Assembly (NCBI RefSeq): GCF_900103285.1
Contig: NZ_FNGS01000001.1
Location: 1 to 64,000, forward strand
Direction of reading: 5' to 3'
Origin: Siphonobacter aquaeclarae
GTDB lineage: Bacteria; Bacteroidota; Bacteroidia; Cytophagales; Spirosomataceae
DNA length: 64,000 nucleotides
This document shows positions 30,750 to 45,608 of the stretch, one piece after another. The position numbers and the translations under genes are program-made. The notes below the pieces were generated by a model. That model made no database searches. It saw nothing but the letters and a program-made list of their open reading frames with translations, and was not told the origin of the DNA. The first letter of the stretch is position 1. The number at the start of each line of letters is the position of its first letter.

Positions 30750-30898
30750 AGTGGTATACGTTTAGGCATTCGGACAAAAGAATCCTGTTCCTTCGCCGGG
30801 CGAAGGAGGAGAGAGAAGGACAGAGGGTGAGCGAATAAGATTACCGGACGGGGGAGGCGTTGTTCTTCATAAAGCGTAACTGGAAGTGGTTAAAGGAA

Positions 30899-31954
30899 TT
30901 ACTCGGTACAACCTGATCCGCTGACAACAATCTGGGCGTCAACAACCTGGTACGTCGCGCCGATGACTTTGCAGAGGACGTTCAGTTTTTCGAACAATAC
31001 TTCATCGGTCAGGGACGTCGTGATCCGGCATCGGGCAAAGACCTCTTCGTCGTACACGATCCGGACACCGTAGGCTTTTTCCAGCGCATCGAAAATCTCG
31101 GAAAGCGGAGCGTCGTCGAACACAAACCGTTTCAGGTTCTCCTTCGGCACCAGAATCCGCGGGTCCTGAATCAGCCCGCGGCTGAGTTGCAGCTCCTCCC
31201 GGAGGAAGGAAGCCTGCTGGTTGGGCGTCAGAAGCAAACCGGCGCTCTCCGGATGAGGACCGGCGGCTTCACTGGGGTACACGGCTACTTTTCCGGTGCG
31301 AACCTGGACCGTCACGCGCGGGTCGCGCTCGTAGGCCGTTACGCGGAAACTGGTGCCTAATACTTTGGTAACCAGTCCGTTGGCATAAACAAAGAACGGA
31401 TGCGCGGGGTCTTTCCTTACCTGAAAAAACGCATCGCCCGAAAGGTAGACTTCCCGCCGCTCGCGAAACGTTGTATCGAACCGGAGCGTACCTGACGGCT
31501 CCAGGCTGACCGTACTGCCGTCACTCAGGGTGATGATCTGCACCTGTGTGCCGGTGTTGCGGATTTCCCGGGTTGCGCTGCCGGAAACGGACGCGACCAT
31601 TTCCCGTACCTTTTCCACCGGTTGTCCGGTATCCCAGATAAACCAGCCGGCTACCAGGGCAATACCCGCGGCGGCCCACCAGAGGGGCCGGAACCGGCGG
31701 ACCGGCTGCGGCCGGATTTGGCCCTGCACGCGTTGCCAGAGATCCGTGACGTCGCTTTCCGGAACGTCCGGGTAAAACTGCGCCATCTCCCGGATGCGGC
31801 GGCGGGCTTCATCCATCACCGGTACCAGGTGTGGATGTGCCGACGCGACCTGCTGCCAGTACCGGTTTTGTCCGGCGTCGGGATATTTTACCCAGCGAAC
31901 GAACGCATCGTTCTCCAGAAAATCATCCAGGCTGTAATCGGCAAACGGGTCCAT
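30899..31954 (-). CDS. FecR-family anti-sigma factor
   Basis: A 351-residue inner-membrane anti-sigma factor. The N-terminal cytoplasmic part (about 1-88, with DLWQRVQGQI) is followed by one membrane segment near 90-107 (PLWWAAAGIALVAGWFIW) and the periplasmic FecR domain (LSDGSTVSLEPSGTLRFD, VYLSGDAFFQVRKDPAHPFF, VLGTSFRVTAY). A C-terminal STN-like DUF4974 domain follows (FDDAPLSEIFDALEKAYGVR). It relays occupancy of the SusC STN domain to the ECF sigma factor encoded 78 bases upstream. Confidence 0.93.
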   Translation of the reverse strand: MDPFADYSLDDFLENDAFVRWVKYPDAGQNRYWQQVASAHPHLVPVMDEARRRIREMAQFYPDVPESDVTDLWQRVQGQIRPQPVRRFRPLWWAAAGIALVAGWFIWDTGQPVEKVREMVASVSGSATREIRNTGTQVQIITLSDGSTVSLEPSGTLRFDTTFRERREVYLSGDAFFQVRKDPAHPFFVYANGLVTKVLGTSFRVTAYERDPRVTVQVRTGKVAVYPSEAAGPHPESAGLLLTPNQQASFLREELQLSRGLIQDPRILVPKENLKRFVFDDAPLSEIFDALEKAYGVRIVYDEEVFARCRITTSLTDEVLFEKLNVLCKVIGATYQVVDAQIVVSGSGCTE

Positions 31955-32032
31955 CCGGTCGTAAGGGTTTCAAGGATTAGATACAGCGACCATACGGCGT
32001 GTACTCACCTATTCCCGAAAATTTTTTAAAAA

Positions 32033-32650
32033 TCAGACAGGCTGTGAAAACAGGAGAAGAAGTATGGCAGAAGGCAACTGTCCGCGAAGCTGGCGGACGG
32101 CGCGGAAGAGCAGGTTGCGGGCCGACTGCTCATTGACTTTCATGATGCGGGCGATCTCTTCCGTCGAAAAATCATGGTAATACCGAAGCTGGATCACTTC
32201 CTGCTGGCGGACCGGCAGGCGTTCCAGCGCAGCCTGTAACCGGGTCAGCTCCCGGTGCCGGTGTTCGGTTTCTACCCAGGTGGGTTCGGCGTCGACACCG
32301 TCGGGAAACCATTCCTCAGACAGGACGCCGTCGACCGTCGGAATGAGCCTGTTGGATTCAATAGACCGTAAAATGCGGTTCCGAAGCGATTTATACAGGT
32401 AAAAACGAGGCTCCTGTACATGGCCGAGCCGGTCCCGGTGGTTCCAGAGATGAACAAAAAGGTCCTGAAGGTGGTCCTGCACCAACTGGCGGTCGGACGA
32501 AATGCGGTAGCCATACCGGAGCAGGTCGCGGACATAAAAATTATAGAGTTCCGCAAAAGCACCCTTTTGCTGATAGGCGTCCCAGATCTGCTTGTCGTCT
32601 GCCATTCGTGACCGGTTGTTTCCCGGAAAAGACCCCGTTGAGTCGTTCAT
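32033..32650 (-). CDS. ECF-type RNA polymerase sigma factor (FecI-like)
   Basis: A 205-residue sigma-70 factor of the FecI-like Bacteroidota group. Region 2 lies at about 25-95 (LLRYGYRISSDRQLVQDHLQ, LFVHLWNHRDRLG), and region 4 at about 140-195 (LERLPVRQQEVIQLRYYHD, STEEIARIMKVNEQSARNLL). The start at 32650 is chosen because GGAAAGAGT lies directly before that ATG. A longer reading would begin inside the terminator of the next gene, and a shorter one (32605) lacks a ribosome-binding site. It should direct transcription of the SusC/SusD pair downstream. Confidence 0.9.
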   Translation of the reverse strand: MNDSTGSFPGNNRSRMADDKQIWDAYQQKGAFAELYNFYVRDLLRYGYRISSDRQLVQDHLQDLFVHLWNHRDRLGHVQEPRFYLYKSLRNRILRSIESNRLIPTVDGVLSEEWFPDGVDAEPTWVETEHRHRELTRLQAALERLPVRQQEVIQLRYYHDFSTEEIARIMKVNEQSARNLLFRAVRQLRGQLPSAILLLLFSQPV

Positions 32651-32682
32651 ACTCTTTCCGGGAAAAAAATGAATAATCCCAA

Positions 32683-32722
32683 GAACAAAAAAGGACGGGT
32701 AACGCCCCGTCCTTTTTTGTTC
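32683..32722. terminator. Perfect 17-bp bidirectional terminator
   Basis: GAACAAAAAAGGACGGG and CCCGTCCTTTTTTGTTC are perfect inverted copies around TAACGC, with A and T runs inside the stem. It lies 14 bases after the esterase stop on the minus strand and separates that gene from the sigma factor. Confidence 0.9.
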
Positions 32723-32736
32723 CGTACCTGAAATCA

Positions 32737-33555
32737 TCAGGACTTCGGTTTATTGAAAAACTGCTGCATGAAAAGCAGCTGGTACGAAATGGCGTTGTTC
32801 CAGTACGGCCAGTTGTGGCCGCCGGGACGGGTGATGTAGTCGTGGACGATGTTGCGCTCCAGCATTTTCTCGTGCAGGTTGTTGTTGACCCGGAAAAAGA
32901 AATCGTCGGTACCGCAGTCAATGATCAGCGCGATGGAATTCGGTGTAATCAGGTGAAGCTGATTGATAACCGTATTCTGTTCCCAGCGCTCCGGATTCTG
33001 GGCGTAGGTGCCGAGTCGTTTCGCCATATCCCAGTTGTTGGGGAAGGGGCGGATGTCTACGCCGCCGCTCATGCTGCCGGCTGCGCCAAAAACATCCTGA
33101 TGCCGGATACCGAGATACAGCGCCCCATGACCGCCCATACTCAGGCCTGTAATACCCCGGGCGGAACGGTTTTTGATGGTTTTATACTTGCTGTCGACCC
33201 AGTTGACAAGTTCTTTCGAAACATATGTTTCGTATTTCCAGGCCGGGTCTACGGGGCTGTCCCAGTACCAGGAGGAGAAGTTGCCGTCGGGACAAACGAG
33301 GATCATCTGGTATGTATCAGCAGCGGTGCGGAAGGCGGCGGATTTTTTAACCCAGTCGCTGTAATTGCCGCTATACCCGTGAAGGACATAAACAACAGGA
33401 TATTCCTTGCCGGACGAATAGGAATCCGGTGTAAGCACGACCGCTTTGATGGTTTTATTCATCGAGGTACTGAACGTCTCAACGGTATCGATTTTGGCGG
33501 CGGAGACGCCGAGGGTTGCCAGCAGGCAGAGAACAGCTATGTACAGGGTTTTCAT
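32737..33555 (-). CDS. Exported alpha/beta-hydrolase esterase (esterase D/acyltransferase-like)
   Basis: A 272-residue protein with a signal peptide ending near LGVSAAK. Catalytic elements of the esterase D-like alpha/beta-hydrolase group are visible: oxyanion-region VVYVLHGYSGN, nucleophile serine in GLSMGGHG, acid aspartate in IDCGTDDFFF and catalytic histidine in RPGGHNWPYW. Similar enzymes in polysaccharide loci remove acetyl or feruloyl groups. The substrate here is not determined. The start at 33555 opens the signal peptide; the longer reading adds 16 residues without signal character. It appears monocistronic. Confidence 0.85.
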   Translation of the reverse strand: MKTLYIAVLCLLATLGVSAAKIDTVETFSTSMNKTIKAVVLTPDSYSSGKEYPVVYVLHGYSGNYSDWVKKSAAFRTAADTYQMILVCPDGNFSSWYWDSPVDPAWKYETYVSKELVNWVDSKYKTIKNRSARGITGLSMGGHGALYLGIRHQDVFGAAGSMSGGVDIRPFPNNWDMAKRLGTYAQNPERWEQNTVINQLHLITPNSIALIIDCGTDDFFFRVNNNLHEKMLERNIVHDYITRPGGHNWPYWNNAISYQLLFMQQFFNKPKS

Positions 33556-33663
33556 AAGAAGAGGACAAAATAAACGACCGGCAAGATAGTCGATTTTCGA
33601 CACGGGAAGCTGATTTTACCTGGGGGAATGACCGTCGTCATGTACAGGTATTACAGGAATAAA

Positions 33664-33671
33664 TAGCTTTG
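33664..33671 (+). promoter_or_regulatory. -7 promoter element TAGCTTTG for the PhnA-type gene
   Basis: TAGCTTTG is an exact match to the Bacteroidota -7 motif TAnnTTTG and ends 24 bases before the ATG at 33696. No clear -33 TTG is present. It overlaps a small AATAGC/GCTATT hairpin. It argues against the upstream ATG at 33669 as the start. Confidence 0.5.
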
Positions 33672-33695
33672 GGGCTATTTTCTTACTTGATACCA

Positions 33696-34253
33696 ATGAA
33701 TATGACACAAGATGTTTGCGTGCTGTGCGGAAAGAACGAAGACCTGAGTAGCTATGAAGTACCCCCGGCCGGCCACGCCGCCGGTGAAGTAGTACTATGC
33801 CGCCCCTGCCTCGATCAGATTGAACGGAAGGCGGAGCTCACGCCGGACTACTGGCGTTTTTTGCCGGATGCCATGTGGAGTGAAGTTCCGGCGGTACAGG
33901 TATTGGCCTGGCGGATGCTTACCCGCCTGAAAAACGAAAGCTGGGCGGCAGAAGCGCTGGACGTATTGTACCTCGACGAAGAAACCGAAGCCTGGGCCAA
34001 AGCGGTAGGGGAGGAAGACGACTTTGTAGCCGGTCTGGTGCACCGCGACAGCAACGGCGCGATCCTCCAGACCGGAGATACGGTGGTACTGACAAAAACA
34101 CTCGATGTCAAAGGCAGCCAGATCAGCGCGCGGATGGGAACGGTGGTGAAGAACATCCGCGTCGTCGAAGACAACGCCGAACAGATCGAAGGGAAAGTCG
34201 AAGGTCAGCAGATCGTGATCCTGACAAAGTATGTACGGAAGCAGAACGTATAG
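33696..34253 (+). CDS. PhnA-domain protein (zinc ribbon)
   Basis: A 185-residue cytoplasmic protein with an N-terminal four-cysteine zinc ribbon (CVLCG and LCRPCLD), a helical middle part, and a C-terminal PhnA domain with the conserved DSNGAILQTGDTVVLTKTLD and GQQIVILTKYVRK. Despite the name, PhnA-type proteins are not established phosphonate-degrading enzymes; their role is unclear. The start at 33696 is placed after the -7 element; ATG at 33702 is an alternative. The gene is divergent from the esterase and is followed by the long repeat region. Confidence 0.85.
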   Translation: MNMTQDVCVLCGKNEDLSSYEVPPAGHAAGEVVLCRPCLDQIERKAELTPDYWRFLPDAMWSEVPAVQVLAWRMLTRLKNESWAAEALDVLYLDEETEAWAKAVGEEDDFVAGLVHRDSNGAILQTGDTVVLTKTLDVKGSQISARMGTVVKNIRVVEDNAEQIEGKVEGQQIVILTKYVRKQNV

Positions 34254-34280
34254 CGTGTGACGGTAGTTTGCGGGAGAAGG

Positions 34281-34742
34281 GTTTACAGTTTTCGGTTTTC
34301 AGTTTACAGTTTTCAGTTTGGAGGACGGAGCAGGTCGCCTGTCGTGCGTAGCATTCGCTACGCACTTTTTAATTGGCTTGGGCCTACGATAGCTATCACT
34401 CTGTGGCAATTTACGACCTGTCGTTTTGAGACGGCGTGGGTCGCCCGCCGTGCGTAGCATTCGCTACGCACTTTTTATTTGGCAGGCTGCGCCTGCTGCT
34501 GCCGCTTACCTGCAGATAATTTACGGTCTGTGGTTTTGAGATGGAGCGGGCGACTACACCCCGAAACGACAAGCAATCAACAACCTATGAGAAAGACAGA
34601 CAGTAGCAGTAGGCATAGCCAACCAACCAAAAAGTGTGAAGCATTAAAAAGTACAGAACGAATGCTACCCACGACAGGCGACCTGCTCCGTCCTCCAAAC
34701 TGAAAACTGAAAACCGAAAACAATAAACTGAAAACAGTAAAC
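34281..34742. repeat. Composite inverted-repeat element A with heptad (GTTTNNN/NNNAAAC) ends
   Basis: The element starts 27 bases after the PhnA-type stop. Its left end is six heptads GTTTNNN (34281-34322; NNN = ACA, TCG, TCA, ACA, TCA, GGA). Its right end is seven heptads NNNAAAC (34694-34742). Inside these ends lies a further inverted copy of about 37 bases, beginning GGACGGAGCAGGTCGCCTGT on the left (from 34323) and repeated in reverse complement at about 34657-34693, with one mismatch. The element fills most of the 910-base gene-free stretch 34254-35163. From 34743 to 35163 I see no gene, only the AT-rich upstream region of the SusC gene with a TTGAAC/GTTCAA dyad at 35064-35088. Confidence 0.8.
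34321..34540 (+). repeat. Tandem ~106-bp repeat, two copies, each with a GTGCGTAGC hairpin and T-run
   Basis: Two copies of GTGCGTAGC-ATTC-GCTACGCAC followed by five T (34344-34370 and 34450-34476) lie 106 bases apart. They share flanking segments such as TTTACG-N-CTGT-GTTTTGAGA at the 3' end of each unit. A degenerate third unit begins at about 34540. Each hairpin by itself looks like a short intrinsic terminator. The unit is nested inside element A. Confidence 0.75.
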
Positions 34743-35163
34743 ACCAACCAATCCTTTCCAACGCTATCAAAAATAGTATTTTCCCAATATGCTCTTTCAT
34801 TTATCAGGTGATCTGAAAATAGTGCTTGGTATTCTCATCGGCATTCTTCTACATTTGCGACACAAGACTACTTTTTCTATAGATTTAATCATGTTTAGAA
34901 TGTCGTCTGCTCTGCTTCGTCCGAATGCCGCCTGTTCTGCTTCGCCCGCCTCCTTCGCCGGAATGGCGTGTTGTTGCTGACCGATTTCCCTTTTCTCTCC
35001 CGAACCTTCTCAACAAACACCTGTGAAACAGAAAGCGCCCGTTCGCTTTCTCATTTTATCTACTTGAACTATATATTCTATCGTTCAAATAGTGTTTAAT
35101 TGTCGAATGCATGGCATCCGACCGGAATGCTGCATGCTCAAATCATCCCAAATGAGGAAAAAA

Positions 35164-38100
35164 ATGAAGGAACGTATACGGTATCTGCTGTTGCTTTCTG
35201 CTGTATTTCTGACAGCCGCCGCCGGCGCCCAGACCAAGTTGAACGGGAAAGTCATCGACTCCCGCACCCGCCTCCCGATCGCGTACGCGTCGATTTCCCT
35301 CAAGGGAAGTACCAACGGCTCCGTGACGAAAGAAGACGGAAGTTTTGAAATTGTTACCTACAAAGCCCTGCCGGCGACGCTCATTGTACAAAACGTCGGG
35401 TATGAGCGGCGTGAAGTGGAAGTACGCGAACTGCCGGTGACCATCGAGCTGACCGAAACGTCGCAGGCCCTGCAGGAAGTAGTAGTTATCGGGTACGGAA
35501 CCCAGAAGAAAAGCGATATCACCGGATCGATCTCCACGCTGCCCGCCCAGGCGCTGAAACAGCCCATCAGCTCGTTTGACAGGGCATTACAGGGTGTCGT
35601 CGCAGGGGTACAGGTGACATCAGTGGCCGGCCAGCCCGGCGCGGCGGTTTCCATCCGTATCCGTGGCGGTAACTCCATCAACGGGTCGAACGAGCCGCTC
35701 TACGTCATCGACGGTTTTCCGGTATATAACAGCAACTCCGACGCCGATGCCGGCGTGACGACAGGACCGAATATCAACGCACTGTCGACCCTCAACCCCG
35801 CCGATATCGAATCCATCGATATCCTCAAAGATGCCTCGGCAACAGCTATTTACGGCTCTCGCGGCGCGAATGGCGTCGTCATTATCACGACGAAAAAAGG
35901 GAAAGCGGGGCAACACTCCTTTACCTATGACGGGTATTACGGGGTGCAGGATGTAGTCCGGACAATACCCCTGCTCAATGCACAGCAATGGGCCCTCCTC
36001 AAAAACGACGCACGCCTCGACTCCGGCAAGCAGCCGGCCTTTACCCAGACCCAGATCGACAGCCTCGGGCAACCGGGCGTTGGGACCGACTGGCAGCGGG
36101 CAGCCTTCCGGACGGCGCCTATCCAGAGCCACAACCTGAGTTTTACGGGAGGTGACGACAAAACCCGCTTCGCCGTTTCCGGCAATTATTTCAAACAGGA
36201 CGGCGTACTGGCCAATACAGATTTTGAGCGGTATTCCTTCCGTATCAACATGGACCGGACGTTCACCTCCAAATTCAAACTCGGTACCAATCTCACTGGC
36301 AGCAAAACGAAGGCGCAGGTAGCTCCGGCAGGCGTTGTCGGCAACCTGCTGCAAATGCCGCCCACTGTCCCGCTATACGACGCCACCGGCAGCTATACCC
36401 TCCGCAGCATCTACGATACGCCCCTCGGCAACCCCATCGCCACGCTCAACCGGCAGCTCAACGAAACCGTTTCCTATCGTGGTTTTGGTAATGCGTACGG
36501 CGAGTATCAACTGGCAGAAGGCCTGACCGCCAGGATTTCCGCGGGGATCGATGCGCTGGTGACGAAACAAAACCGATACCTGCCGTCTACCCTGTACGAA
36601 GGGGCGTCCTACAACGGACTTGGCTCAATCGGAACGAAATTCGCCATCGGCTGGCTCAACGAAAATACCCTCAGCTACCGCAAAAGCCTCGGTGCCAACC
36701 ACCAGCTCGACGCCGTCGTAGGGTACACCCAGCAAACTTCCACGACGGAAAATACGGTCGCTTCCGCCTCCAACTTTGTCACCGACGCCTTTCAGCACAA
36801 CAACCTCGGCGCCGGGACGACCCTCCAGACGCCCAGTTCAAATGCCTTCAGCTGGGCGCTGCAGTCCTTCCTGGGCCGGGTGAACTATACCTTCCGCAAC
36901 AAATACCATTTCACCGTATCCGCTCGTGCGGATGGTTCGTCCCGTCTCGGGAAAAATCATAAATGGGGATATTTTCCGTCTGCCGCATTTTCCTGGAATG
37001 TCAACCGCGAAGAGTTTATCAAAGCCCTGCCGCAGATCAGCAACCTGAAGTTCCGGGTCAGCGCCGGCGTCACCGGAAACCAGGAAATCACGCCGTATTC
37101 GTCGCTCGCCCAGGAAAGCTACTACTCCTACATCATCGGAAATACGCTGGTGGCAGGTTACGCTCCTTCGGGAGTAGCCAACCCGGATTTGAAGTGGGAG
37201 TCGACTTCGCAGTACGACGCGGGCATCGATCTCGGATTGCTCAAAAACCGGATCAGCATTACCCTGGATGCGTATTACAAAGTCACCAGGGATCTCCTCC
37301 TGAATGTACCGCTGCCCTATACCACCGGGTATTCCAGCGCCTTGCAGAACTTCGGAAAGGCTGAAAACAAGGGTATTGAGCTTTCGTTGAATACGGTCAA
37401 TTTCGAAGGAAAATTCAACTGGACAAGTGCTTTTGTCTTCTCCGCCAACCGGAACAAGGTACTCAGCCTCGGCCCGGGCGTGACGTCCATCATCTCCGAC
37501 CCGTCGCTTGCACGGGTAGGGGAGGCGCTGGGATCGTTTTACGTCTACAAAACGAATGGTATTTTTCAGTTGACGGATGACGTCGCCAGCCTGCCGCGCC
37601 TCAGCGCCAAAGACAAGGCCGGCAGCCAGCGGTATGTGGACGTCAACGGAGACGGAACCATTACCCAGGCCAATGACCGGGTGATCGTCGGCAATGCCCA
37701 GCCGAAGTTCATCGTCGGGTTGACAAACACATTCAACTATAAAAACTTCGACCTGACCTTCCTCTTCCAGGGACAATACGGTAACAAGGTCTACAACGTC
37801 AACAAAGCCAACCTGGAGCTCGGAACAGGATACATCGGCGCGTCGACGACGATGCTCGACCGTTGGACGCCGACCAACCCGAGCAATACCATCCACCGCG
37901 CGATTGAAGAACCTGCGATCGTCATCTCGGACCGCTTCATCGAAGACGGGTCTTACCTCCGTCTGAAGAACATCAGCCTGGGGTACTCGCTGCCGTCGAG
38001 CCTGACTTCCCTCCTGAAAGTCAAGCAGGTACGCTTCTATGTTTCGGGGCAAAACCTGGCTACCTGGACCAACTACACCGGCTATGATCCGGAGGTAAGT

Positions 38101-38193
38101 TCCAACGGGCAAAGCTCCCTGACGCCGGGCGTCGACAATGCAGTCTATCCCAACAGCAAAACCGTACTCGGCGGATTAACCGTCACATTCTGA
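35164..38193 (+). CDS. SusC/RagA-family TonB-linked transporter (sulfatase locus)
   Basis: A SusC-like transporter of 1009 residues from the chosen start. ATG 35164 is preceded by GAGGAAAAAA, a good ribosome-binding site, and opens a clean signal peptide ending in AAAGAQ; the longer frame adds cysteine-rich non-signal residues. It has the carboxypeptidase-regulatory-like domain (LNGKVIDSRTRLPIAYASI) and no STN domain. The plug follows LQEVVVIGYGTQKKSDITG and contains LYVIDGFPVYN and ATAIYGSRGANGVVIITTKK; the barrel ends in GGLTVTF. It leads the sulfatase operon, so it presumably imports a sulfated compound or its fragments. Confidence 0.95.
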   Translation: MKERIRYLLLLSAVFLTAAAGAQTKLNGKVIDSRTRLPIAYASISLKGSTNGSVTKEDGSFEIVTYKALPATLIVQNVGYERREVEVRELPVTIELTETSQALQEVVVIGYGTQKKSDITGSISTLPAQALKQPISSFDRALQGVVAGVQVTSVAGQPGAAVSIRIRGGNSINGSNEPLYVIDGFPVYNSNSDADAGVTTGPNINALSTLNPADIESIDILKDASATAIYGSRGANGVVIITTKKGKAGQHSFTYDGYYGVQDVVRTIPLLNAQQWALLKNDARLDSGKQPAFTQTQIDSLGQPGVGTDWQRAAFRTAPIQSHNLSFTGGDDKTRFAVSGNYFKQDGVLANTDFERYSFRINMDRTFTSKFKLGTNLTGSKTKAQVAPAGVVGNLLQMPPTVPLYDATGSYTLRSIYDTPLGNPIATLNRQLNETVSYRGFGNAYGEYQLAEGLTARISAGIDALVTKQNRYLPSTLYEGASYNGLGSIGTKFAIGWLNENTLSYRKSLGANHQLDAVVGYTQQTSTTENTVASASNFVTDAFQHNNLGAGTTLQTPSSNAFSWALQSFLGRVNYTFRNKYHFTVSARADGSSRLGKNHKWGYFPSAAFSWNVNREEFIKALPQISNLKFRVSAGVTGNQEITPYSSLAQESYYSYIIGNTLVAGYAPSGVANPDLKWESTSQYDAGIDLGLLKNRISITLDAYYKVTRDLLLNVPLPYTTGYSSALQNFGKAENKGIELSLNTVNFEGKFNWTSAFVFSANRNKVLSLGPGVTSIISDPSLARVGEALGSFYVYKTNGIFQLTDDVASLPRLSAKDKAGSQRYVDVNGDGTITQANDRVIVGNAQPKFIVGLTNTFNYKNFDLTFLFQGQYGNKVYNVNKANLELGTGYIGASTTMLDRWTPTNPSNTIHRAIEEPAIVISDRFIEDGSYLRLKNISLGYSLPSSLTSLLKVKQVRFYVSGQNLATWTNYTGYDPEVSSNGQSSLTPGVDNAVYPNSKTVLGGLTVTF

Positions 38194-38202
38194 GGAATTT
38201 CC

Positions 38203-39624
38203 ATGAAAAAAATACTCCCGATACTGGCCCTGCTCGCGGTGGGAACTTCCTGCACGACGCTCGACGAAACCCCGAAATCCTTCGTTTCGGAGGAGCAGTT
38301 TTTCCAGACCCAGGCGGATGCCGTCGCTGCGGTTAACGCCATTTATTATTGCCTCAACTATTCCGGTCAGACGCCGTACAACGTCCTGTTTTCGACGGGT
38401 ATGGACATGATGAGCGACGACGTCCAGCCCGGGCCGGGCGCCACCAACGCCGACGTCCGCTCCCAGGCCATTCTCTCGCATTCGTCGACCGGCCTGCGGA
38501 TTTACCAGATCTGGCAGCAACATTATACCGCGATCAACCGGGCCAACATCGCCGTCGACCGTATTCCTTCCGTCGCCTTCGACGAAACCCTGAAAAAGCG
38601 GCTGATTCTGGAGGCGAAGTTTCTCCGGGGACTATTCTACTTCAACCTGGTACGGCTGTATGGCGATGTGCCGCTGGTGCTGCACCAGACGAAATCCCTG
38701 AATCCGGAGGATATCTATGTGGCACGGACTTCGACCGACGAAGTATATAAACAAATCGTTTCCGATCTGACTGAGGCAGAGGGATTACCAACGTCGTACA
38801 GTGCGACAGACGTAGGTCGTGCGACAGCCGGCGCTGCCAAATCCCTCCTTGCCAAGGTATACCTGACCCGTTCGGACTGGGACAACGCCGCCAAAAAGGC
38901 GGAAGAAGTCATCAACGGGCCATATGGTTACGACCTTTTCGCCAACTATGCCGACGTCTTCAACGTCGCCACCAAAAACGGAAAGGAGCATATCTTCTCC
39001 GCTCAGTTCAAAGGCAATACCAACTCGCACGGCAACAGCCAGGCGCTGCGGGAGGCGCCGACGGGTATCACCGGTGTCAACGGCAACTACGCCGAGCAAC
39101 CGGGAAACGGTGTATACCAGCTTTTTAGCGGAAAAGACAAGCGCCGGGATGTAACGTTCATCACGTCGATCACGAGCCCGACGACAGGCAAGACGACCGT
39201 CATAGATCCCCACTTCCACAAATACTGGGACAATTCGGTACCGGGTAACCTGACGGAATCGAGTGCCAATGTGCCCATTCTCCGGTTTTCCGACGTTCTG
39301 CTGATGCATGCGGAGGCGCTCAACGAAAAGAGCGGTCCGACGACAGACGCCTACAAATCCTACAACCGCGTACGTGTACGCGCCGGGCTGGATGCATTGT
39401 CGGGGTTGTCGAAAGAGCAGTTCCGGGATTCAGTCTACCTCGACCGGCGCAAGGAGCTCGTCTTCGAATACTCCCGCTGGTTTGACCTCATCCGGACCAA
39501 ACGCATGGTCTCCGCCCTTCAGAAAATCGGCAAAACCAACGCGTCCGAAAAACATTACCTCTATCCAATTCCCCAGTACGAAATCGACAATAACCCGAAG
39601 ATGAAGCAGAATCCGGGATGGTGA
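38203..39624 (+). CDS. SusD/RagB-family outer-membrane lipoprotein (sulfatase locus)
   Basis: A 473-residue SusD homologue beginning 9 bases after the SusC stop. Its lipoprotein signal ends in AVGTSC (cysteine at residue 17). Typical blocks are EAKFLRGLFYFNLVRLYGDV, LDRRKELVFEYSRWFDLIR and the C-terminal HYLYPIPQYEIDNNPKMKQN. It is shorter than the other two SusD proteins in the window. Its stop is followed within 8 bases by heptad repeat element B, which separates it from the first sulfatase. Confidence 0.94.
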   Translation: MKKILPILALLAVGTSCTTLDETPKSFVSEEQFFQTQADAVAAVNAIYYCLNYSGQTPYNVLFSTGMDMMSDDVQPGPGATNADVRSQAILSHSSTGLRIYQIWQQHYTAINRANIAVDRIPSVAFDETLKKRLILEAKFLRGLFYFNLVRLYGDVPLVLHQTKSLNPEDIYVARTSTDEVYKQIVSDLTEAEGLPTSYSATDVGRATAGAAKSLLAKVYLTRSDWDNAAKKAEEVINGPYGYDLFANYADVFNVATKNGKEHIFSAQFKGNTNSHGNSQALREAPTGITGVNGNYAEQPGNGVYQLFSGKDKRRDVTFITSITSPTTGKTTVIDPHFHKYWDNSVPGNLTESSANVPILRFSDVLLMHAEALNEKSGPTTDAYKSYNRVRVRAGLDALSGLSKEQFRDSVYLDRRKELVFEYSRWFDLIRTKRMVSALQKIGKTNASEKHYLYPIPQYEIDNNPKMKQNPGW

Positions 39625-39631
39625 GAAACGG

Positions 39632-39703
39632 GTTTTCTGTTTGCGGTTTTCTGTTTTCGGTTGGGCATCCCTGACTGAAAACAGAAAACCGCAAACTGAA
39701 AAC
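39632..39703. repeat. Inverted-repeat element B with heptad arms
   Basis: Four heptads GTTTNNN (39632-39659; TCT, GCG, TCT, TCG) are followed by a short centre containing GGGCATCCC and then four heptads NNNAAAC (39676-39703). The two arms pair at 28 of 30 positions (39631-39660 with 39675-39704). It lies between the SusD stop and the first sulfatase start and could form a very stable RNA hairpin inside the operon mRNA. Confidence 0.85.
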
Positions 39704-39718
39704 CAAAACCTGACTCCA

Positions 39719-41983
39719 ATGCAAGCACGATATACATTACCTCTCCTCACCCTCCTCGCTCTGCCGGCAGCAGCGCAGCACGATCCCGTGCAGAAGTATG
39801 AAGGGAAAATCGGTCGTACTGTTGCCGAAACCCGGCAATGGTGGCCGCAACGTACCCGGGCGCAGAAAGGCGCCCCCAATGTGGTCTGGATTTTGCTGGA
39901 CGACGTCGGTTACGGCGCAATCAGCACCTTCGGCGGCCTCATCCGCACCCCGACGCTCGACAGCCTCGCCAACCAGGGACTGCGGTATACCAATTTCCAT
40001 ACCACCGCCATCTGCTCGCCCACGCGGGCAGCCCTGCTGACGGGGCGGAACTCGCATTCCGTCCACATGGGCCTCTTTCCGAATACGGCCATCGGCACGC
40101 CGGGATATGACGGATACATGCCCTTCGAGAAGGCTACAGCAGCGGAAATTCTCCGGGAAAACGGATATAATACGTATGCCGTCGGCAAATGGCACCTCAC
40201 GCCGCCGTCTGACCAGACAGCCGCCGGGCCGTTTAACCGCTGGCCGACCGGCCGCGGTTTCGACCACTACTACGGTTTCCTGGGCGGTGCGACCGACCAG
40301 TGGCACCCCCTTCTCTGGGAAGATACCCGGAAGGTGGAGCCGGAAGCGGACGGCCGTCATTTTACCACGCGGATTACGGACAAGGCCATTTCCTATATCG
40401 CCGAACAAAAGGCGGTATCCGCCGAAAAGCCCTTCTTTCTGTATTATGCCACCGGCGCGGGGCACTCGCCTCACCACGTCGCGAAAGAATGGACTGAGCC
40501 CTATAAAGGACTCTTCGACGGGGGCTGGGACGCCTACCGCGAAAAGGTACTGGCCCGCCAGATCAGCCTGGGCGTCGTGCCGAAGGGAACGACCCTGCCG
40601 CCCCGTAACCCGGGCATCAAAGCCTGGGATAGCCTTCCGGCGGATGAGAAAAAATTGTACGCCCGTTTCATGGAAAACTACGCAGGTTTCCTGACGCATA
40701 CCGACTATGAAATCGGTCGCCTGGTACAGTACCTCCACAAAATCGGACAGCTCGATAATACGCTGATTTTCATATCAGTAGGAGATAATGGTGCGAGTAA
40801 GGAAGGCACGTTTGTCGGGATCGTCAACGGCAATACGCCCGGTCAATCCGAAGAGGAGCGCCTTCGCCGCAACATCGAAAACATCGACCTGATCGGGACG
40901 GAAGCCTCGCAACCCAACTACCCCCTGGGCTGGGCCATGGCGGCCAATACGCCCTTCCGCTACTGGAAGCAGGACGCCAACTCGGAAGGCGGAACGCACA
41001 ATCCCCTGATTGTTTTCTATCCGAAAGGTATTCAGGAAAAAGGCGGTATCCGGACGCAATACAGCCATATCATCGATGTATTGCCGACGACGCTTGAACT
41101 AACCGGCGCGAAGGTACCCTCCCTCCTCAATGGCTATCCGCAGGAACGTATCGAAGGTACCAGCCTGGCCTACAGCCTGAACAACACCGCGCTCGCTTCC
41201 CGTCATACCGTTCAGCACTATGAAATCCGGGGATCCCGCTCGATTTACAAAGACGGCTGGAAGGCCGGTACCCTGCACAAATCCGGCGACGATTTCGCCG
41301 GCGACAAATGGGAGCTGTACCACCTGTCGGAAGACTTCAACGAGCTGCACGACCTCGCTTCACAGCATCCCGACAAGCTCAAAGAGCTCCGGGAACTATT
41401 TGACAGTGAGGCGGATAAGTACAATATCTATCCGCTGAAAGACGGCTCCGAAAAAGACCTCGACTTCTCGCACCTCTACCAGCGGGACGGCGCGACGCGC
41501 ACCGTATTGTACCCCGAAGCGCCTCAGGTATTCGGCATCGCCAGTCCGCTGCCTGTACATAAATCCTACACCATCACGGCTGAAACGGAGCTGAGCAAGG
41601 GAACGCAGGGCGTCATCCTGGCGGTAGGCGGTCGTTTCAATGGCTTAAGTCTCTTCGTGCAGGACGGAAAGCTCCAGGTAGCCCACGCCACCGGGCAGAA
41701 GAAGTACCTGCTGGCGTCGGCGAGGCCGGTGCAACCCGGTAAGGCGACGGTTCGGCTTGTCGTCAACTACCAGAATGCGAAAGGCCCGGAAGATCCTGCC
41801 GGTACGCAGCAGTTGTTTGTCAACGACGTCAAAGTCGCCGAAGGCCCCATCGTCAAAGCGCAGGCCGCGATCCGGAGCACCGACGAAATCAACGTCGGCC
41901 GCGACCTCGTCACCCAGGTCTCCGACCGGTACAAGGGCCCGTTCCCGTTTACGGGGAAGATTGAGAGAATCGTAATCGAGTGA
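39719..41983 (+). CDS. Arylsulfatase 1 (AtsA/AtsD-like, with C-terminal beta-sandwich)
   Basis: A 754-residue S1-type sulfatase hydrolysing a sulfate ester. The start at 39719 opens a signal peptide (LLTLLALPAAAQ); an upstream ATG lies inside repeat B. The metal-binding WILLDDVGYG and the formylglycine motif CSPTRAALLTGRN (Cys type) are intact, with KWHLTPPSDQ, RGFDHYYGFLGGATDQW and GDNGASKEG. After about residue 580 a LamG/concanavalin-like domain follows (NGLSLFVQDGKLQVAHATG). The substrate is unknown. It is a close paralogue of the sulfatase at 43273, and the two flank the hydroxylase and two small membrane-protein genes. Confidence 0.93.
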   Translation: MQARYTLPLLTLLALPAAAQHDPVQKYEGKIGRTVAETRQWWPQRTRAQKGAPNVVWILLDDVGYGAISTFGGLIRTPTLDSLANQGLRYTNFHTTAICSPTRAALLTGRNSHSVHMGLFPNTAIGTPGYDGYMPFEKATAAEILRENGYNTYAVGKWHLTPPSDQTAAGPFNRWPTGRGFDHYYGFLGGATDQWHPLLWEDTRKVEPEADGRHFTTRITDKAISYIAEQKAVSAEKPFFLYYATGAGHSPHHVAKEWTEPYKGLFDGGWDAYREKVLARQISLGVVPKGTTLPPRNPGIKAWDSLPADEKKLYARFMENYAGFLTHTDYEIGRLVQYLHKIGQLDNTLIFISVGDNGASKEGTFVGIVNGNTPGQSEEERLRRNIENIDLIGTEASQPNYPLGWAMAANTPFRYWKQDANSEGGTHNPLIVFYPKGIQEKGGIRTQYSHIIDVLPTTLELTGAKVPSLLNGYPQERIEGTSLAYSLNNTALASRHTVQHYEIRGSRSIYKDGWKAGTLHKSGDDFAGDKWELYHLSEDFNELHDLASQHPDKLKELRELFDSEADKYNIYPLKDGSEKDLDFSHLYQRDGATRTVLYPEAPQVFGIASPLPVHKSYTITAETELSKGTQGVILAVGGRFNGLSLFVQDGKLQVAHATGQKKYLLASARPVQPGKATVRLVVNYQNAKGPEDPAGTQQLFVNDVKVAEGPIVKAQAAIRSTDEINVGRDLVTQVSDRYKGPFPFTGKIERIVIE

Positions 41984-42067
41984 GTTTGGAGTTTAGGGTT
42001 TGGAGTTTAGGGTTGAACGAATCCAACCTAACCCCAAATCCTAAACTCCAAACCCTAAACTCCAAAC
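41984..42067. repeat. Inverted-repeat element C with heptad arms
   Basis: Four heptads GTTTNNN (41984-42011; GGA, AGG, GGA, AGG) begin directly after the sulfatase stop codon. A short centre and then five heptads NNNAAAY follow (42033-42067; CCT and TCC alternating, with CCCAAAT first). The arms pair almost perfectly over about 28 bases. It lies between sulfatase 1 and the first small membrane-protein gene. Confidence 0.85.
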
Positions 42068-42076
42068 CCCAATCAA

Positions 42077-42202
42077 ATGACCACCTCCGACCTCTCCCTC
42101 CTCACCAAAAAAATCGCTGTGGGGCTTGTTCTGCTGCTCGTGTCCGTGCTGATCATTTTCGGCGGGCTATGGGCCACACAATACCTGCTTTGGGAAAACT
42201 AA
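42077..42202 (+). CDS. Small single-pass membrane protein, 41 residues
   Basis: ATG at 42077 opens a 41-codon frame whose middle is a clear membrane segment (KIAVGLVLLLVSVLIIFGG), with a polar N-terminus and a short aromatic C-terminus (TQYLLWEN). It lies just after repeat C and 12 bases before another small membrane-protein gene. I do not recognise a family. The uninterrupted hydrophobic span and tight spacing favour a real gene over chance; no clear ribosome-binding site is visible. Confidence 0.6.
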   Translation: MTTSDLSLLTKKIAVGLVLLLVSVLIIFGGLWATQYLLWEN

Positions 42203-42214
42203 ACACCTGCCGCT

Positions 42215-42370
42215 ATGAAAATGGAACCCCGGGTGGCCCGGCGGATTTTCCGGAATGCCCTCCTCAGCCTGCTGCTGTATGCGCTGCCGGTGCTGCTCAT
42301 GTTCGCGACGTTTTACGTCACCGGCGAGCGCCCCTGGCGACAGGCAGCAAAAACACACCAATCCCGCTAA
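42215..42370 (+). CDS. Small single-pass membrane protein, 51 residues
   Basis: ATG at 42215 opens a 51-codon frame with a basic N-terminus (EPRVARRIFRN), one hydrophobic span (ALLSLLLYALPVLLMFATFY) and a basic C-terminus. It ends 3 bases before the hydroxylase gene. No family is recognised. With its 41-residue neighbour it may be an accessory subunit of the membrane-bound hydroxylase, a proposal based only on position and topology. Confidence 0.6.
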   Translation: MKMEPRVARRIFRNALLSLLLYALPVLLMFATFYVTGERPWRQAAKTHQSR

Positions 42371-42373
42371 ACC

Positions 42374-43276
42374 ATGATCATGTTCTTCGAAGCCCTCTTC
42401 AAAAACCTGAGTACCTGGGGATTACCCACGCTGGTACTCCTGCTTGGTCTGGTGGAGTTTTCCCTCGGCCTGTACAAGAAACACTGGAACCGGAACGAGA
42501 TTCTTCTCGATATAGCCTGCTTCACGATTCCGAAGCTCGTCGTCCGCCCGCTCGTCGCCTATTTCGGGCTGAAAGTACTGCCGCTGGTTTTTCCGGGGTA
42601 TAAAGACGCGTTTGAGTGGGTACCGTTCTGGTGGGGATTTCTGATCCTCTGCGTGGCCGACGACCTGACGCAATACTGGTACCACCGCCTGCACCACGAA
42701 ATACCCTTTCTCTGGCGGTTTCACCGGACGCACCATTCGGCGCCGTACATGGGTATGTCGATGGCCAGCCGGCAGAATATCATTTACACGCTGTTCTTTT
42801 CGCAGACCTATGTGACGACGACCCTTGTATACCTGGGGTTGGGCTATCCGGCGCTGTTTGTGAAGGGTATCAAATCGATCATTACCACGCTCGCCCACTC
42901 CAGTATTCCCTGGGATAAACCTTTGTACGAACGGCGCTGGCTGCACCCGGTAGCCTGGGTACTGGAACGTCTGATTTCCACGCCGGCAACGCACCACGCG
43001 CACCATGCTGATACGTCGGACGACGGCGTCGGCTACTACAAAGGCAACTTCGGCAATATGTTCTTTTTGTGGGATATCCTTTTCGGAACCGGACTGATCA
43101 CGCGGCAGTACCCCGCTTCGTATGGTATCAAGTCGTATCAGCAGGAAGAATGGTACGCCCAGTTTCTCTGGCCCATTCTCAAATCCCGGAAAGAAGGCAG
43201 CGAACTGGCACCCAACGGGCCGATGGTTCAGGAAGACGAGCCCGCCCTTCTCCCATCAACCCCGCAACCGGCATGA
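42374..43276 (+). CDS. Fatty-acid-hydroxylase / sterol-desaturase superfamily membrane enzyme
   Basis: A 300-residue integral membrane protein with four or more hydrophobic helices. It has the histidine clusters of the di-iron hydroxylase superfamily: HRLHHE, FHRTHHS and the C-terminal TPATHHAHHA. Members hydroxylate or desaturate lipids or isoprenoid-like molecules using molecular oxygen. The length is standard. Its place between two paralogous arylsulfatases, overlapping the second by ATGA, is unexpected for a polysaccharide locus. It could mean that the sulfated substrate is lipid-like, or that the enzyme modifies the cell's own lipids when the locus is induced. Both are inference. Confidence 0.88.
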   Translation: MIMFFEALFKNLSTWGLPTLVLLLGLVEFSLGLYKKHWNRNEILLDIACFTIPKLVVRPLVAYFGLKVLPLVFPGYKDAFEWVPFWWGFLILCVADDLTQYWYHRLHHEIPFLWRFHRTHHSAPYMGMSMASRQNIIYTLFFSQTYVTTTLVYLGLGYPALFVKGIKSIITTLAHSSIPWDKPLYERRWLHPVAWVLERLISTPATHHAHHADTSDDGVGYYKGNFGNMFFLWDILFGTGLITRQYPASYGIKSYQQEEWYAQFLWPILKSRKEGSELAPNGPMVQEDEPALLPSTPQPA

Positions 43277-45540
43277 AAAAACGATATCTTTTTGTTACCG
43301 GCGCATTGCTGACTGCCCTTGGCGCAGCTGCGCAGCATACGCCCGTTCAGCCCTACAAGGGGTCAGAAGGCAAAACCCTGGCCGATACCCGGCAGTGGTG
43401 GCCTGAGCGGGCGAAGGCAGCCGGCCCGAACGTCGTCTGGATTTTGCTGGACGATGTAGGATTCGGCGCCATCAGTTCGTTCGGCGGCCTGATTCAGACA
43501 CCCGAACTGGACCGGCTCGCTCAAAACGGCCTCCGCTACACAAACTTCCATACGACGTCGATCTGCGCACCAACCCGCGCCGCGCTCCTCACCGGACGGA
43601 ACCATCACTCCGTTCACATGGGCCTGTTTCCGGAAAATGCAGTCGGCACTCCCGGGTACGATGCGCAGATTCCGTTTGAGCAGGGAACCGTCGCCGAAAT
43701 CCTGAAAGAAAACGGCTACAATACGTTCGCCCTCGGAAAATGGCACCTGACACCCCTGGCAGACCTGACACCTGCCGGGCCGTTTAACCGCTGGCCAACG
43801 GGCAGGGGCTTCGAGCATTTTTACGGATTCCCCTCACGCGGCAGCACCGACCAGTGGCACCCGGAGCTCTGGGAAGATACCCGCCGGGAGAAGGATCAAC
43901 AGGGCCGCCATCTCAACCAGCTTCTTGCCGACAAAGCCATCCACTACATCGGCGCGCAGAAATCCGCCAATCCGGACAAGCCTTTTTTCCTGTACCTGGC
44001 TACCGGCGCCGGCCACGCGCCTCATCAGGTCGCGAAGGAGTGGTCGGACCGCTACAAAGGCAAGTTTGACGGCGGCTGGGATAAATACCGGGAGGAGGTA
44101 CTGGCCAACCAGATTCGCCTGGGTATTGTCCCGAAAAACACGGTACTGCCGCCCCGTAACCCGGGGATCAAGGCATGGGACAGCCTTCCGGCAGACGAGA
44201 AAAAGCTGTTTGCCCGCTTCATGGAAGTATACGCCGGATTTTTGTCGTATACCGATTACGAAGTGGGGCGCGTTGTCCGCTACCTGGAGGAAATCGGGCA
44301 ACTGGACAATACGCTCATTTTTGTTTCGGTGGGAGATAACGGCGCGAGCAAGGAAGGGACTTTTGTCGGCGTTGTAAACAACTATGGAACAGACCTTTCG
44401 GAAGAAGAAAGACTCCGCCGGAACATCGCCGACATCGACCTCATCGGTACCGAATATGCCAAGGCCAACTATCCCCTCGGCTGGGCCGCAGCTACGAATA
44501 CCCCCTTCCGCCAATGGAAACAGGACGCGAATACCGAAGGCGGCACCCGTAATCCGCTGATTGTCCATTACCCGGCCCGCATCCGGGAGAAGGGCGGTAT
44601 CCGGAAGCAGTACAGCCACGTCAATGACCTGCTGCCTACGACACTCGAACTGGTTGGCGCACAAATCCCGGCATCCATCAACGGCTACCCCCAGCAGCCG
44701 CTGGAAGGGACGAGCCTGGCCTACAGCATCGACAATGCCTCGGCCAAAGACCGCCACACGCTGCAATACTATGAAATTCTGGGAACGCGGTCGGTCTACA
44801 AGGACGGCTGGAAAGCCGGTACCCTGCATGTCAAAGGTCAGGATTTTACGCAGGACAAATGGGAACTGCACCACATAGAGGAGGACTTCAATGAACTGCA
44901 CGATCTGGCCGCTGCCCAGCCGCAGAAACTTGCCGAACTGCGCGGGGTATTCGAAGCCGAAGCGGCCAAACGCCATATCTATCCCCTGAAAGACGGAACC
45001 ATACCGACCTTCGGCCCAACGGCTTACAAGGACCGGCAAACCCTGACGCTATACCCCGGCGGGTCGACCATCGTCGATATCGCGAATCCGCTCGCCGGTA
45101 AAAAGGCCTTCCGGATTGCGGCGGACGTGGAGATTCCGTCCCACGGCGCCGAAGGCGTCCTGCTCTCCCGCGGGGGCCGGGCGGGAGGGCTCAGCTTTTT
45201 CGTCAAAGACAAAGCGCTGTATTTTGCATACAACGTCGGCGATGGCGGCACGTTCGTCGTCCGCGCCGACCAACCGCTCGCTCCCGGCCGGCAATCGGTT
45301 CAGGCAGAGCTCGTTCCTGACGGCAAAGGCGGAACCCTCAGCCTCTCGGCCAACGGTAAACCTCTCGGATCCCGGGTACTTCCGCGGTTGTACGGGAACC
45401 TGTACCTTCACGAAGGACTGAATCTTGGATTCGACGACCTGACGCCTGTCACGGACGCGTATGTCGTGCCGTTTGCTTTCACCGGAACCCTGCACAAAGT
45501 CACGATCGACCTTCCGTCTCCCGAACAAAAAGGAAAATGA
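43273..45540 (+). CDS. Arylsulfatase 2 (paralogue of arylsulfatase 1)
   Basis: A 755-residue S1-type sulfatase. The start at 43273 overlaps the hydroxylase stop (ATGA) and opens a signal peptide ending in LGAAAQ; the longer frame has no signal. Motifs WILLDDVGFG, CAPTRAALLTGRNHHS, KWHLTPLADL and GDNGASKEG are intact, and a C-terminal concanavalin-like domain is present (GLSFFVKDKALYFAYNVG). It shares its whole domain order and most blocks with arylsulfatase 1, so the pair arose by duplication with the three-gene membrane cassette between them. Cys-type: it needs a formylglycine-generating enzyme, which is not encoded in this window. Confidence 0.93.
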   Translation: MKKRYLFVTGALLTALGAAAQHTPVQPYKGSEGKTLADTRQWWPERAKAAGPNVVWILLDDVGFGAISSFGGLIQTPELDRLAQNGLRYTNFHTTSICAPTRAALLTGRNHHSVHMGLFPENAVGTPGYDAQIPFEQGTVAEILKENGYNTFALGKWHLTPLADLTPAGPFNRWPTGRGFEHFYGFPSRGSTDQWHPELWEDTRREKDQQGRHLNQLLADKAIHYIGAQKSANPDKPFFLYLATGAGHAPHQVAKEWSDRYKGKFDGGWDKYREEVLANQIRLGIVPKNTVLPPRNPGIKAWDSLPADEKKLFARFMEVYAGFLSYTDYEVGRVVRYLEEIGQLDNTLIFVSVGDNGASKEGTFVGVVNNYGTDLSEEERLRRNIADIDLIGTEYAKANYPLGWAAATNTPFRQWKQDANTEGGTRNPLIVHYPARIREKGGIRKQYSHVNDLLPTTLELVGAQIPASINGYPQQPLEGTSLAYSIDNASAKDRHTLQYYEILGTRSVYKDGWKAGTLHVKGQDFTQDKWELHHIEEDFNELHDLAAAQPQKLAELRGVFEAEAAKRHIYPLKDGTIPTFGPTAYKDRQTLTLYPGGSTIVDIANPLAGKKAFRIAADVEIPSHGAEGVLLSRGGRAGGLSFFVKDKALYFAYNVGDGGTFVVRADQPLAPGRQSVQAELVPDGKGGTLSLSANGKPLGSRVLPRLYGNLYLHEGLNLGFDDLTPVTDAYVVPFAFTGTLHKVTIDLPSPEQKGK

Positions 45541-45608
45541 AGATCGCCGGGACTGTCCCATGCTGAATCAGAACTACCTGCCGGATCCAACCGGCCAACG
45601 GACACACT

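Follow-up and report, generated by a model that had tools for sequence, protein, structure and literature searches.

Inverted heptad arrays of changing sequence at gene boundaries in Siphonobacter aquaeclarae and other Bacteroidota

Three elements in the window

The stretch of DNA analyzed here, referred to below as the window, comprises the first 64,000 nucleotides (nt) of contig NZ_FNGS01000001.1 of Siphonobacter aquaeclarae (assembly GCF_900103285.1), and carries three intergenic inverted repeats built of 7-nt units, GTTTNNN in the left arm and NNNAAAC in the right arm. The arrays and the features next to them are as follows.

33696-34253, plus strand: PhnA-domain (YjdM) gene, upstream of element 1
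34281-34322, plus strand: left heptad array of element 1, six GTTTNNN units with the triplets ACA, TCG, TCA, ACA, TCA and GGA
34344-34365: palindrome GTGCGTAGCATTCGCTACGCAC followed by T5, nested in element 1
34450-34471: second copy of palindrome GTGCGTAGCATTCGCTACGCAC followed by T5, nested in element 1
34694-34742, plus strand: right heptad array of element 1, seven NNNAAAC units
38203-39624, plus strand: SusD-like gene, upstream of element 2
39632-39659, plus strand: left array of element 2, four units with the triplets TCT, GCG, TCT and TCG
39676-39703, plus strand: right array of element 2, four units, ending 15 nt 5' of the predicted sulfatase start codon
39719-41983, plus strand: sulfatase gene, between elements 2 and 3
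41984-42011, plus strand: left array of element 3, four units with the triplets GGA, AGG, GGA and AGG
42040-42067, plus strand: right array of element 3, four units, the exact inverse of the left array, 9 nt from the next predicted start

A sequence-only reading of the window had claimed three such elements, each within 27 nt of a plus-strand stop codon, and both statements agree with measurement. Runs of GTTT or AAAC with at least three copies at exact 7-nt steps number six in the window, all of them arms of the three elements (34281-34319 / 34697-34742, 39632-39656 / 39679-39703 and 41984-42008 / 42043-42067), as compared with a mean of 0.02 and a maximum of 1 in 100 order-1 Markov sequences, and the elements start 27, 7 and 0 nt past the plus-strand stop codons of the PhnA-domain, SusD-like and sulfatase genes, respectively. 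Scoring the 24 window spacers of at least 35 nt for self-similarity at a lag of 7 nt yields a z above 4 in three, which are exactly the three elements. The inverted arms of elements 2 and 3 extend over 31 nt at 94% and 31 nt at 97%, and element 1 forms an inverted repeat of 93 nt at 88% (34281-34373 / 34643-34735), the outer part of which is the right array. As RNA, the two short elements are predicted to fold at −52.8 kcal/mol (z −10.3) and −51.5 kcal/mol (z −9.2), values equaled by none of 200 shuffles; the left arm of element 1 alone has no unusual RNA fold (z −0.6). That the arms of each element match one another, as was also claimed, is true of element 3 (4/4 triplets identical) but does not extend fully to the others: two of the four triplets of element 2 are identical and the other two are one base apart, and the arms of element 1, having six and seven units, pair only in a shifted register.

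Elements 2 and 3 lie between genes of a series running in one direction (35164-45540) that encodes a SusC-like protein, a SusD-like protein, two sulfatases and a fatty-acid hydroxylase, which looks like a locus for sulfated glycan use. The nested palindrome, which is either GTGCGTAGCATTCGCTACGCAC itself or closely similar to it and has T5-T6 behind it, lies inside two long heptad elements, element 1 and one on contig C7 of the same genome (C7 487687-488062), and resembles a swallowed terminator. An Rfam scan of positions 30000-46000 of the window returned 10 matches, nine of them to microRNA hairpin models, with none above the gathering threshold.

Polarity and placement across the genome

The layout recurs throughout the 6.19-Mb genome. 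The array pattern (GTTTNNN)3GTTT has 242 forward and 208 reverse overlapping matches, compared with none for the reversed pattern; the paired GTTT..AAAC pattern has 84 overlapping matches, and the opposite polarity, with AAAC arrays on the left and GTTT arrays on the right, has none in the whole genome. Run calling covered 1.664 Mb, made up of the window and 800 kb each of contigs C7 and C14, and gave 25 GTTT..AAAC pairs, none in the opposite order, and nine unpaired arrays. A repeat labeled AAAC7(rev) is on inspection an ordinary A/T-rich hairpin rather than an opposite-polarity array. Seventeen of the pairs lie between tandem genes, seven between convergent genes and one between divergent genes; the element at C7 639396, the far side of which overlaps a predicted gene, is counted as tandem and becomes convergent under a looser overlap rule. 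The divergent deficit is significant by spacer number (P 0.022) and by spacer length (P 0.0022). A gene 3' end adjoins 24/25 pairs, and 22 of these 24 start no more than 30 nt past the stop codon (median 7), as compared with a mean of 16.7 and a maximum of 21 in 2000 trials of random placement within their own spacers; 15/17 tandem elements lie closer to the preceding stop codon than to the start codon that follows. Both the frequency of the elements and their association with stop codons, by which the sequence-only reading would have its proposal judged, are far above control.

By reading, the right arms of the 25 elements mostly have no T-tract after them, an exception being C7 716644, which is flanked by A5/T5 tracts, and many GTTT elements have an inner boundary of the form GTT-loop-AAC. 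Expansion of one arm is exemplified by 12 GTTTTCG units opposite a mixed partner arm. At the level of triplets, the two arms agree with a score of 66 versus 46.2 ± 4.8 in same-class permuted arms (0/2000). In three elements (C14 345895-346214, C7 487657-488092 and C7 716634-716712) the inverted repeat extends outward beyond the heptads, and in the first two it spans the stop codons of both convergent genes.

The GTTT/AAAC composition, proposed at the outset as the general rule, gives way to a broader one, as the genome also has TARGCTN and GGGCANN heptads and a nonamer, TCTGTGNNN, in the same layout. Among 45 inverted repeats found by a sequence-blind scan of 800 kb of C7, the best period is 7 in 20, including the TARGCTN arrays, and 9 in 19, which are those of the nonamer; the GGGCANN arrays were found in the spacer list. 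In a census by autocorrelation of spacers of 35-250 nt, a lag-7 z above 4 is reached by 20/416 tandem, 15/90 convergent and 0/94 divergent spacers, as compared with 0-3 spacers per class at the control lags of 5, 6, 8 and 9. Tandem and convergent spacers together thus have 35/506 heptad spacers versus 0/94 in the divergent class (Fisher P 0.003). The period-9 class, in which TCTGTGNNN stands opposite NNNCACAGA, consists of near-perfect hairpins, 22 in 1.66 Mb, 13 of them convergent (an example of the class lies at C7 102768-102842); unlike GTTT, it is present in both polarities (16 and 6).

Elements in relatives: one site, many sequences

The paired GTTT pattern occurs in 17/296 sampled genomes and 5/140 genera, namely in this genome, G009 of the same family, G140, G282 and 13/17 sampled genomes of g35, another genus of the class, which we infer to be Flavobacterium. 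Over the 296 genomes, forward matches of the paired pattern sum to 252 versus 15 for the reversed pattern, the latter in nine genomes. The GTTT array pattern has matches in 14/29 relatives. Its reversed control, TTTGNNN arrays, is also frequent in some of these (90+16 in G002, 19+45 in G003 and 39+24 against 4+4 in G011), which suggests further heptad families.

Placement in g35 was followed in 41 elements, that is, all pattern sites in G170, G246, G096 and G284 and 11 of at least 13 in G273, the pattern itself requiring the GTT-loop-AAC inner boundary. Of these, 35 are tandem, five convergent and one divergent. A gene 3' end adjoins 40/41, and the distance to the stop is 4-6 nt in 25/40 (exactly 6 in 16; median 6), these counts including orthologous sites, which are not independent. 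Several elements are found at orthologous sites despite about 41-84% identity at fourfold-degenerate positions of the flanking genes, and many spacers of less than 100 nt between co-directional genes are almost filled by the element.

The strongest results come from two operon-like spacers compared over about 30 g35 genomes, with the neighbors named by Pfam in G170. At fbaA-accD, which lies between genes for a class II fructose-bisphosphate aldolase and a carboxyl transferase, 31/31 genomes matched, giving 30 loci and 28 testable spacers (left out: 17 and 35 nt). At metH-metF, which lies between genes for a B12-dependent methionine synthase and a methylenetetrahydrofolate reductase, 28/31 genomes matched, giving 27 spacers, 22 of them testable (left out: 0, 1, 5, 298 and 506 nt); the metF spacers L273 and L279 have a different upstream gene. 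The best lag is 7 in 26/28 spacers at fbaA-accD (pooled z 29.9; harmonics appear at lags 14 and 21) and in 19/22 at metH-metF (pooled z 19.2). A lag-7 z above 4 is found in 40/51 focal spacers versus 2/105 other spacers of these loci (P 1e-24).

The sequences that keep this period are diverse. By reading, the unit families at these spacers include GTTTMAR, ATTTNAG, TTATGAG, AATTGAT, ATCGTAT, GTTGNNN, GTTRGAA, GTACGAA, GGTNNNN, GTCATAAA and AAAACCT, among others. Local alignment places the heptad spacers in 17 clusters among 25 at fbaA-accD and in 6 among 16 at metH-metF, with a threshold set by hand, the background lying well below it, and with some clusters having related units. The cluster of G170 itself accounts for only four of the 25. 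Polarity is retained, the excess of G over C being greater in the left half than in the right in 23/25 and 15/16 heptad spacers, as in 35/35 short ones of the S. aquaeclarae genome. The arms also belong together. Each cluster being represented by a single spacer, left halves were paired with their own or with permuted right halves; the own-arm RNA duplex at fbaA-accD reaches 19.3 versus 9.8 ± 1.25 kcal/mol (0/5000), and that at metH-metF is likewise favored (P 0.0026). Since a left half binds its own right half far better than permuted ones, both arms tend to change together. An exact 7-nt indel separates 4/12 hand-chosen pairs of same-family orthologues, and G246 and G170 have a common accD family and a different metF family. 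The earlier suggestion that period and pairing are conserved without sequence is thereby borne out beyond the window, at orthologous spacers of another genus.

Several metH-metF spacers (L272, L281 and L285, and partly L275, L283 and L284) lack a heptad array and are occupied by a GC-rich inverted repeat whose arms are of the CCCCCTTCGGGGG type.

Interpretation and known heptamer arrays

The elements share one layout, a G/T-rich left array by the stop codon and an inverted A/C-rich array opposite, often just 5' of the next start. What is conserved is the period, the inversion, the G-left/C-right polarity and the site, but not the sequence; convergent and co-directional gene pairs are the usual setting of the arrays and divergent pairs a rare one; arrays of the same family at a given site may differ by exactly one heptad; and both arms switch family together between species, the site outliving the sequence. 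The explanation to which we lean, with less than even confidence, is that they are cistron-boundary heptad hairpins, each formed when a slippage array was duplicated in inverted form at its origin, the stem of which is kept by RNA-level selection. Replication slippage by 7 nt would produce the heptad arrays, and a foldback or template switch would add an inverted copy of the first arm as the second. After birth, the arms would slip and drift independently, and elements would be replaced wholesale. The stem may be kept as an RNA-level cistron boundary that protects the 3' end of the upstream mRNA or insulates the two reading frames; such a boundary would act without ending transcription, its A/C-rich 3' arm having no U-tract and leaving the next leader poor in G. 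The step from a stem that is kept to one that has a function is one that we infer. A stronger form, in which the element is defined by period, inversion, polarity and place with no sequence at all, an active process writes and rewrites both arms at operon boundaries, and selection keeps the hairpin and ignores the letters, is on the unlikely side.

A number of results weigh against this explanation. Both focal sites were chosen because one genome, G170, had a GTTT element there. A fold z below −3 is found in 21/28 fbaA-accD spacers but only 9/22 metH-metF spacers, and in just 8/17 and 2/6 cluster representatives, respectively, does no other right half pair better with the left half than its own. 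Indels of sizes other than 7 nt are present between same-family orthologues, three period-7 spacers (L282, L289 and L290) are one-armed and without unusual fold, and the arms of L248 come, by reading, from different families. In the S. aquaeclarae genome, only a few percent of tandem spacers have a heptad run, and divergent cases do occur, in 4/81 divergent spacers longer than 250 nt by a windowed score (tandem 7/107, convergent 3/25), in 2/12 TARGCTN repeats and in 3/22 nonamer repeats. Non-heptad spacers lean G-left/C-right too (78:13 in divergent spacers; 263:180 in tandem and convergent ones), so that part of this bias is common to spacers in general. Residue-level tests are negative as well: matching of arms by triplet, which beats permutation in this genome, is no better than in permuted arms in three g35 genomes (P 0.76, 0.08 and 0.25), and G.U does not exceed A.C on the sense strand, with 18:25 in the 17 tandem elements here and 19:18 in the 35 tandem elements of g35. 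Given the lack of triplet matching in g35 and of a G.U excess, pairing is not policed base by base. The two causes offered by the sequence-only reading, a generating process and selection on structure, are both still live, the latter without the G.U excess over A.C expected of selection on RNA pairing.

The sister species add a further difficulty. Three elements (at bacA-truB, a phosphoglucomutase gene and an SpoU methylase gene) were compared over 18 loci with neighbors assigned by Pfam, and took the place of the window's own three sites because the SusD protein could not be assigned a clear orthologue within the genus, the best full-length matches from other species having 42-43% identity. 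A heptad array is present at 3/3 loci here and at 0/15 loci in five other species of the genus, contrary to the expectation that the period would persist at sister loci. No substitute element is seen at bacA-truB in the sisters, where the next coding sequence lies within about 20 nt of the stop, and the phosphoglucomutase locus has hairpin-plus-T sequences resembling ordinary terminators. The array being empty at 15/15 sister loci, the elements come and go; the flanks of the empty sites are too divergent for a junction to be defined.

Much of this would be expected if mutation alone were at work, which is a serious possibility. Under this alternative, 7-nt slippage arrays and foldback duplications would arise wherever a spacer tolerates them and have no function; the divergent rarity would reflect purifying selection on promoters, and persistence at the two operon spacers would be that of an inherited, fast-evolving tandem repeat. 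It accommodates the absence of wobble asymmetry and, in g35, of residue-level compensation, the one-armed arrays and one-arm expansions such as the 12 GTTTTCG units, the 7-nt indels, the sites empty in all five sister species at three loci, and the heptad runs in some long divergent spacers. It can also draw on a proposal, cited in PMC4692102 and PMC4679880, that the length of a heptamer corresponds to the stretch of DNA that the polymerase holds. What it explains poorly is the fixed polarity of the GTTT pairs and of heptad spacers generally, the peak of stop distances at 4-6 nt in g35, the co-variation of arms over 17 sequence clusters at one site, and the contrast between focal and neighboring spacers. 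Because the fixed polarity, the stop distance of 4-6 nt and the two heptad-prone spacers do not follow readily from mutation alone, a stem kept as an RNA-level boundary is favored. The cistron-boundary reading would also account for pairing at the level of families without compensation at the level of residues, because a birth event would write both arms at once; slow compensatory evolution would leave the reverse pattern. One-arm expansions, the lone arms of L282, L289 and L290 and the mixed pair L248 fit decay after birth.

Dispersed mobile cassettes, similar to repetitive extragenic palindromic (REP) sequences or miniature inverted-repeat transposable elements, spread by ectopic gene conversion or a mobilizing activity and having their own dialect in each genome, are improbable. 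Few families with many copies per genome, the replacement of a whole family between the close relatives G246 and G170 at metF with retention at accD, and the GTT-loop-AAC inner boundary of many GTTT elements (required by the pattern in g35) would suit such cassettes. REP sequences and bacterial interspersed mosaic elements are short palindromic repeats at gene 3' ends, have a fixed REP sequence and are associated with a REP-associated tyrosine (Y1) transposase. The 3'-end palindromic location is alike, but neither the fixed sequence nor the transposase link is seen here: no common core is present beyond the unit, no conserved palindrome sequence was found, and in a set of 13 genomes elements occur without a match to the REP Y1 transposase in G246, a match occurs without a hit to the GTTT array pattern in G085, G316 and G010, and the S. 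aquaeclarae genome has one match. The REP link was accordingly rejected.

Still less probable are binding arrays for an oligomerizing DNA- or RNA-binding protein, by analogy with the predicted IHF/HU-type sites of Geobacter metallireducens. The regular 7-nt spacing, the 4-nt anchor and the inverted pairs could serve such a protein, and paired 7-9 nt arrays in G. metallireducens have been interpreted so (PMC2700814); here, however, the anchor itself changes between species at one site, through the 17 clusters of fbaA-accD. Transcription terminators are very doubtful: the 3'-end location, the convergent pairs and C7 716644, with A5/T5 flanks like a bidirectional terminator and hairpin-plus-T sequences at that gene in sisters, speak for them, but the polarity is reversed (T-left, A-right), most right arms have no following T-tract, and in g35 the genes on the two sides are co-directional for 35/41 elements, the spacers being mostly short. 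Integron attC sites, whose consensus is GTTRRRY/RYYYAAC, were considered for the GTT/AAC ends and dropped, the polarity being reversed.

The statement of the sequence-only reading that no such class had been described proves too strong. Xanthomonas has GGGAATC heptamer arrays, of which two genomes contain 70 and 75 pairs in convergent inverted orientation; many arrays lie within 50 bp of stops on the coding strand, they are under-represented between divergent open reading frames, and they have mostly the same neighbors in two species, varying in length and sequence, with no role assigned (Rehm 2015, PMC4692102). The tandem 7-nt unit, the convergent inverted arrays, the proximity to stops and the under-representation, not absence, in divergent spacers are common to these pairs and the elements described here. 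They differ in that the single unit of Xanthomonas contains GGG tracts, which were interpreted as forming quadruplexes, whereas here many families are found at one site and the arms co-vary; by reading, GGG tracts are lacking in elements 1 and 2 and in most arms, exceptions being AGGG- and GGGCA-type units and, in part, element 3. G. metallireducens has arrays of 7-9 nt units in classes 1-3, of which classes 1 and 2 are paired on opposite strands at variable distance, and the class 2 unit, TCTCCGTS[Y], resembles the nonamer TCTGTGNNN; they are predicted sites of an IHF/HU global regulator, and the available text mentions neither a rule of placement by stop codons nor turnover of sequence at a given site (PMC2700814). 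TAACTGA direct repeats of Beggiatoaceae, Cyanobacteria and some Bacteroidetes are intergenic and mostly just 5' of start codons, which is where a lone right arm would lie here, but they consist of one fixed unit in direct orientation, with one inverted case, and binding of a post-transcriptional regulator has been proposed (MacGregor 2015, PMC4679880). In the P6b stem of the Nostoc trnL intron, 7-nt units (TDNGATT or NNTGAGT) have repeatedly been swapped in place for those of the other class, the differences being that the stem lies within a self-splicing intron and has two classes only (Kaasalainen 2015, PMC4476775). In our view, these four systems may be parts of one picture, with a G-rich arm after the stop, an A/C-rich arm before the start and free sequence. 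Stop-proximal inverted heptamer pairs were thus already known from Xanthomonas, and it is the conservation of a site without sequence that seems new: within titles and the beginnings of abstracts of the open-license literature, no report of sequence-free heptad hairpins in Bacteroidota was found, nor any precedent for the unification with known heptamer arrays or for many families at one site.

Heptamer repeats in bacteria have had no agreed role, and what is conserved in them (the 7-nt step, the inversion, the polarity and the place on the stop side) can now be separated from the sequence, which is not. Such elements are grouped by autocorrelation, whereas searches by sequence or Rfam model would not group them. 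A separate inverted-repeat family, CCGGTGGTTGAGC...GTCGAAACCA, is found in the same genome at C7 94239-94597, 218914-219003 and 423859-424698 and at C14 488564-488655 and 496607-497014, one copy lying inside a heptad element.

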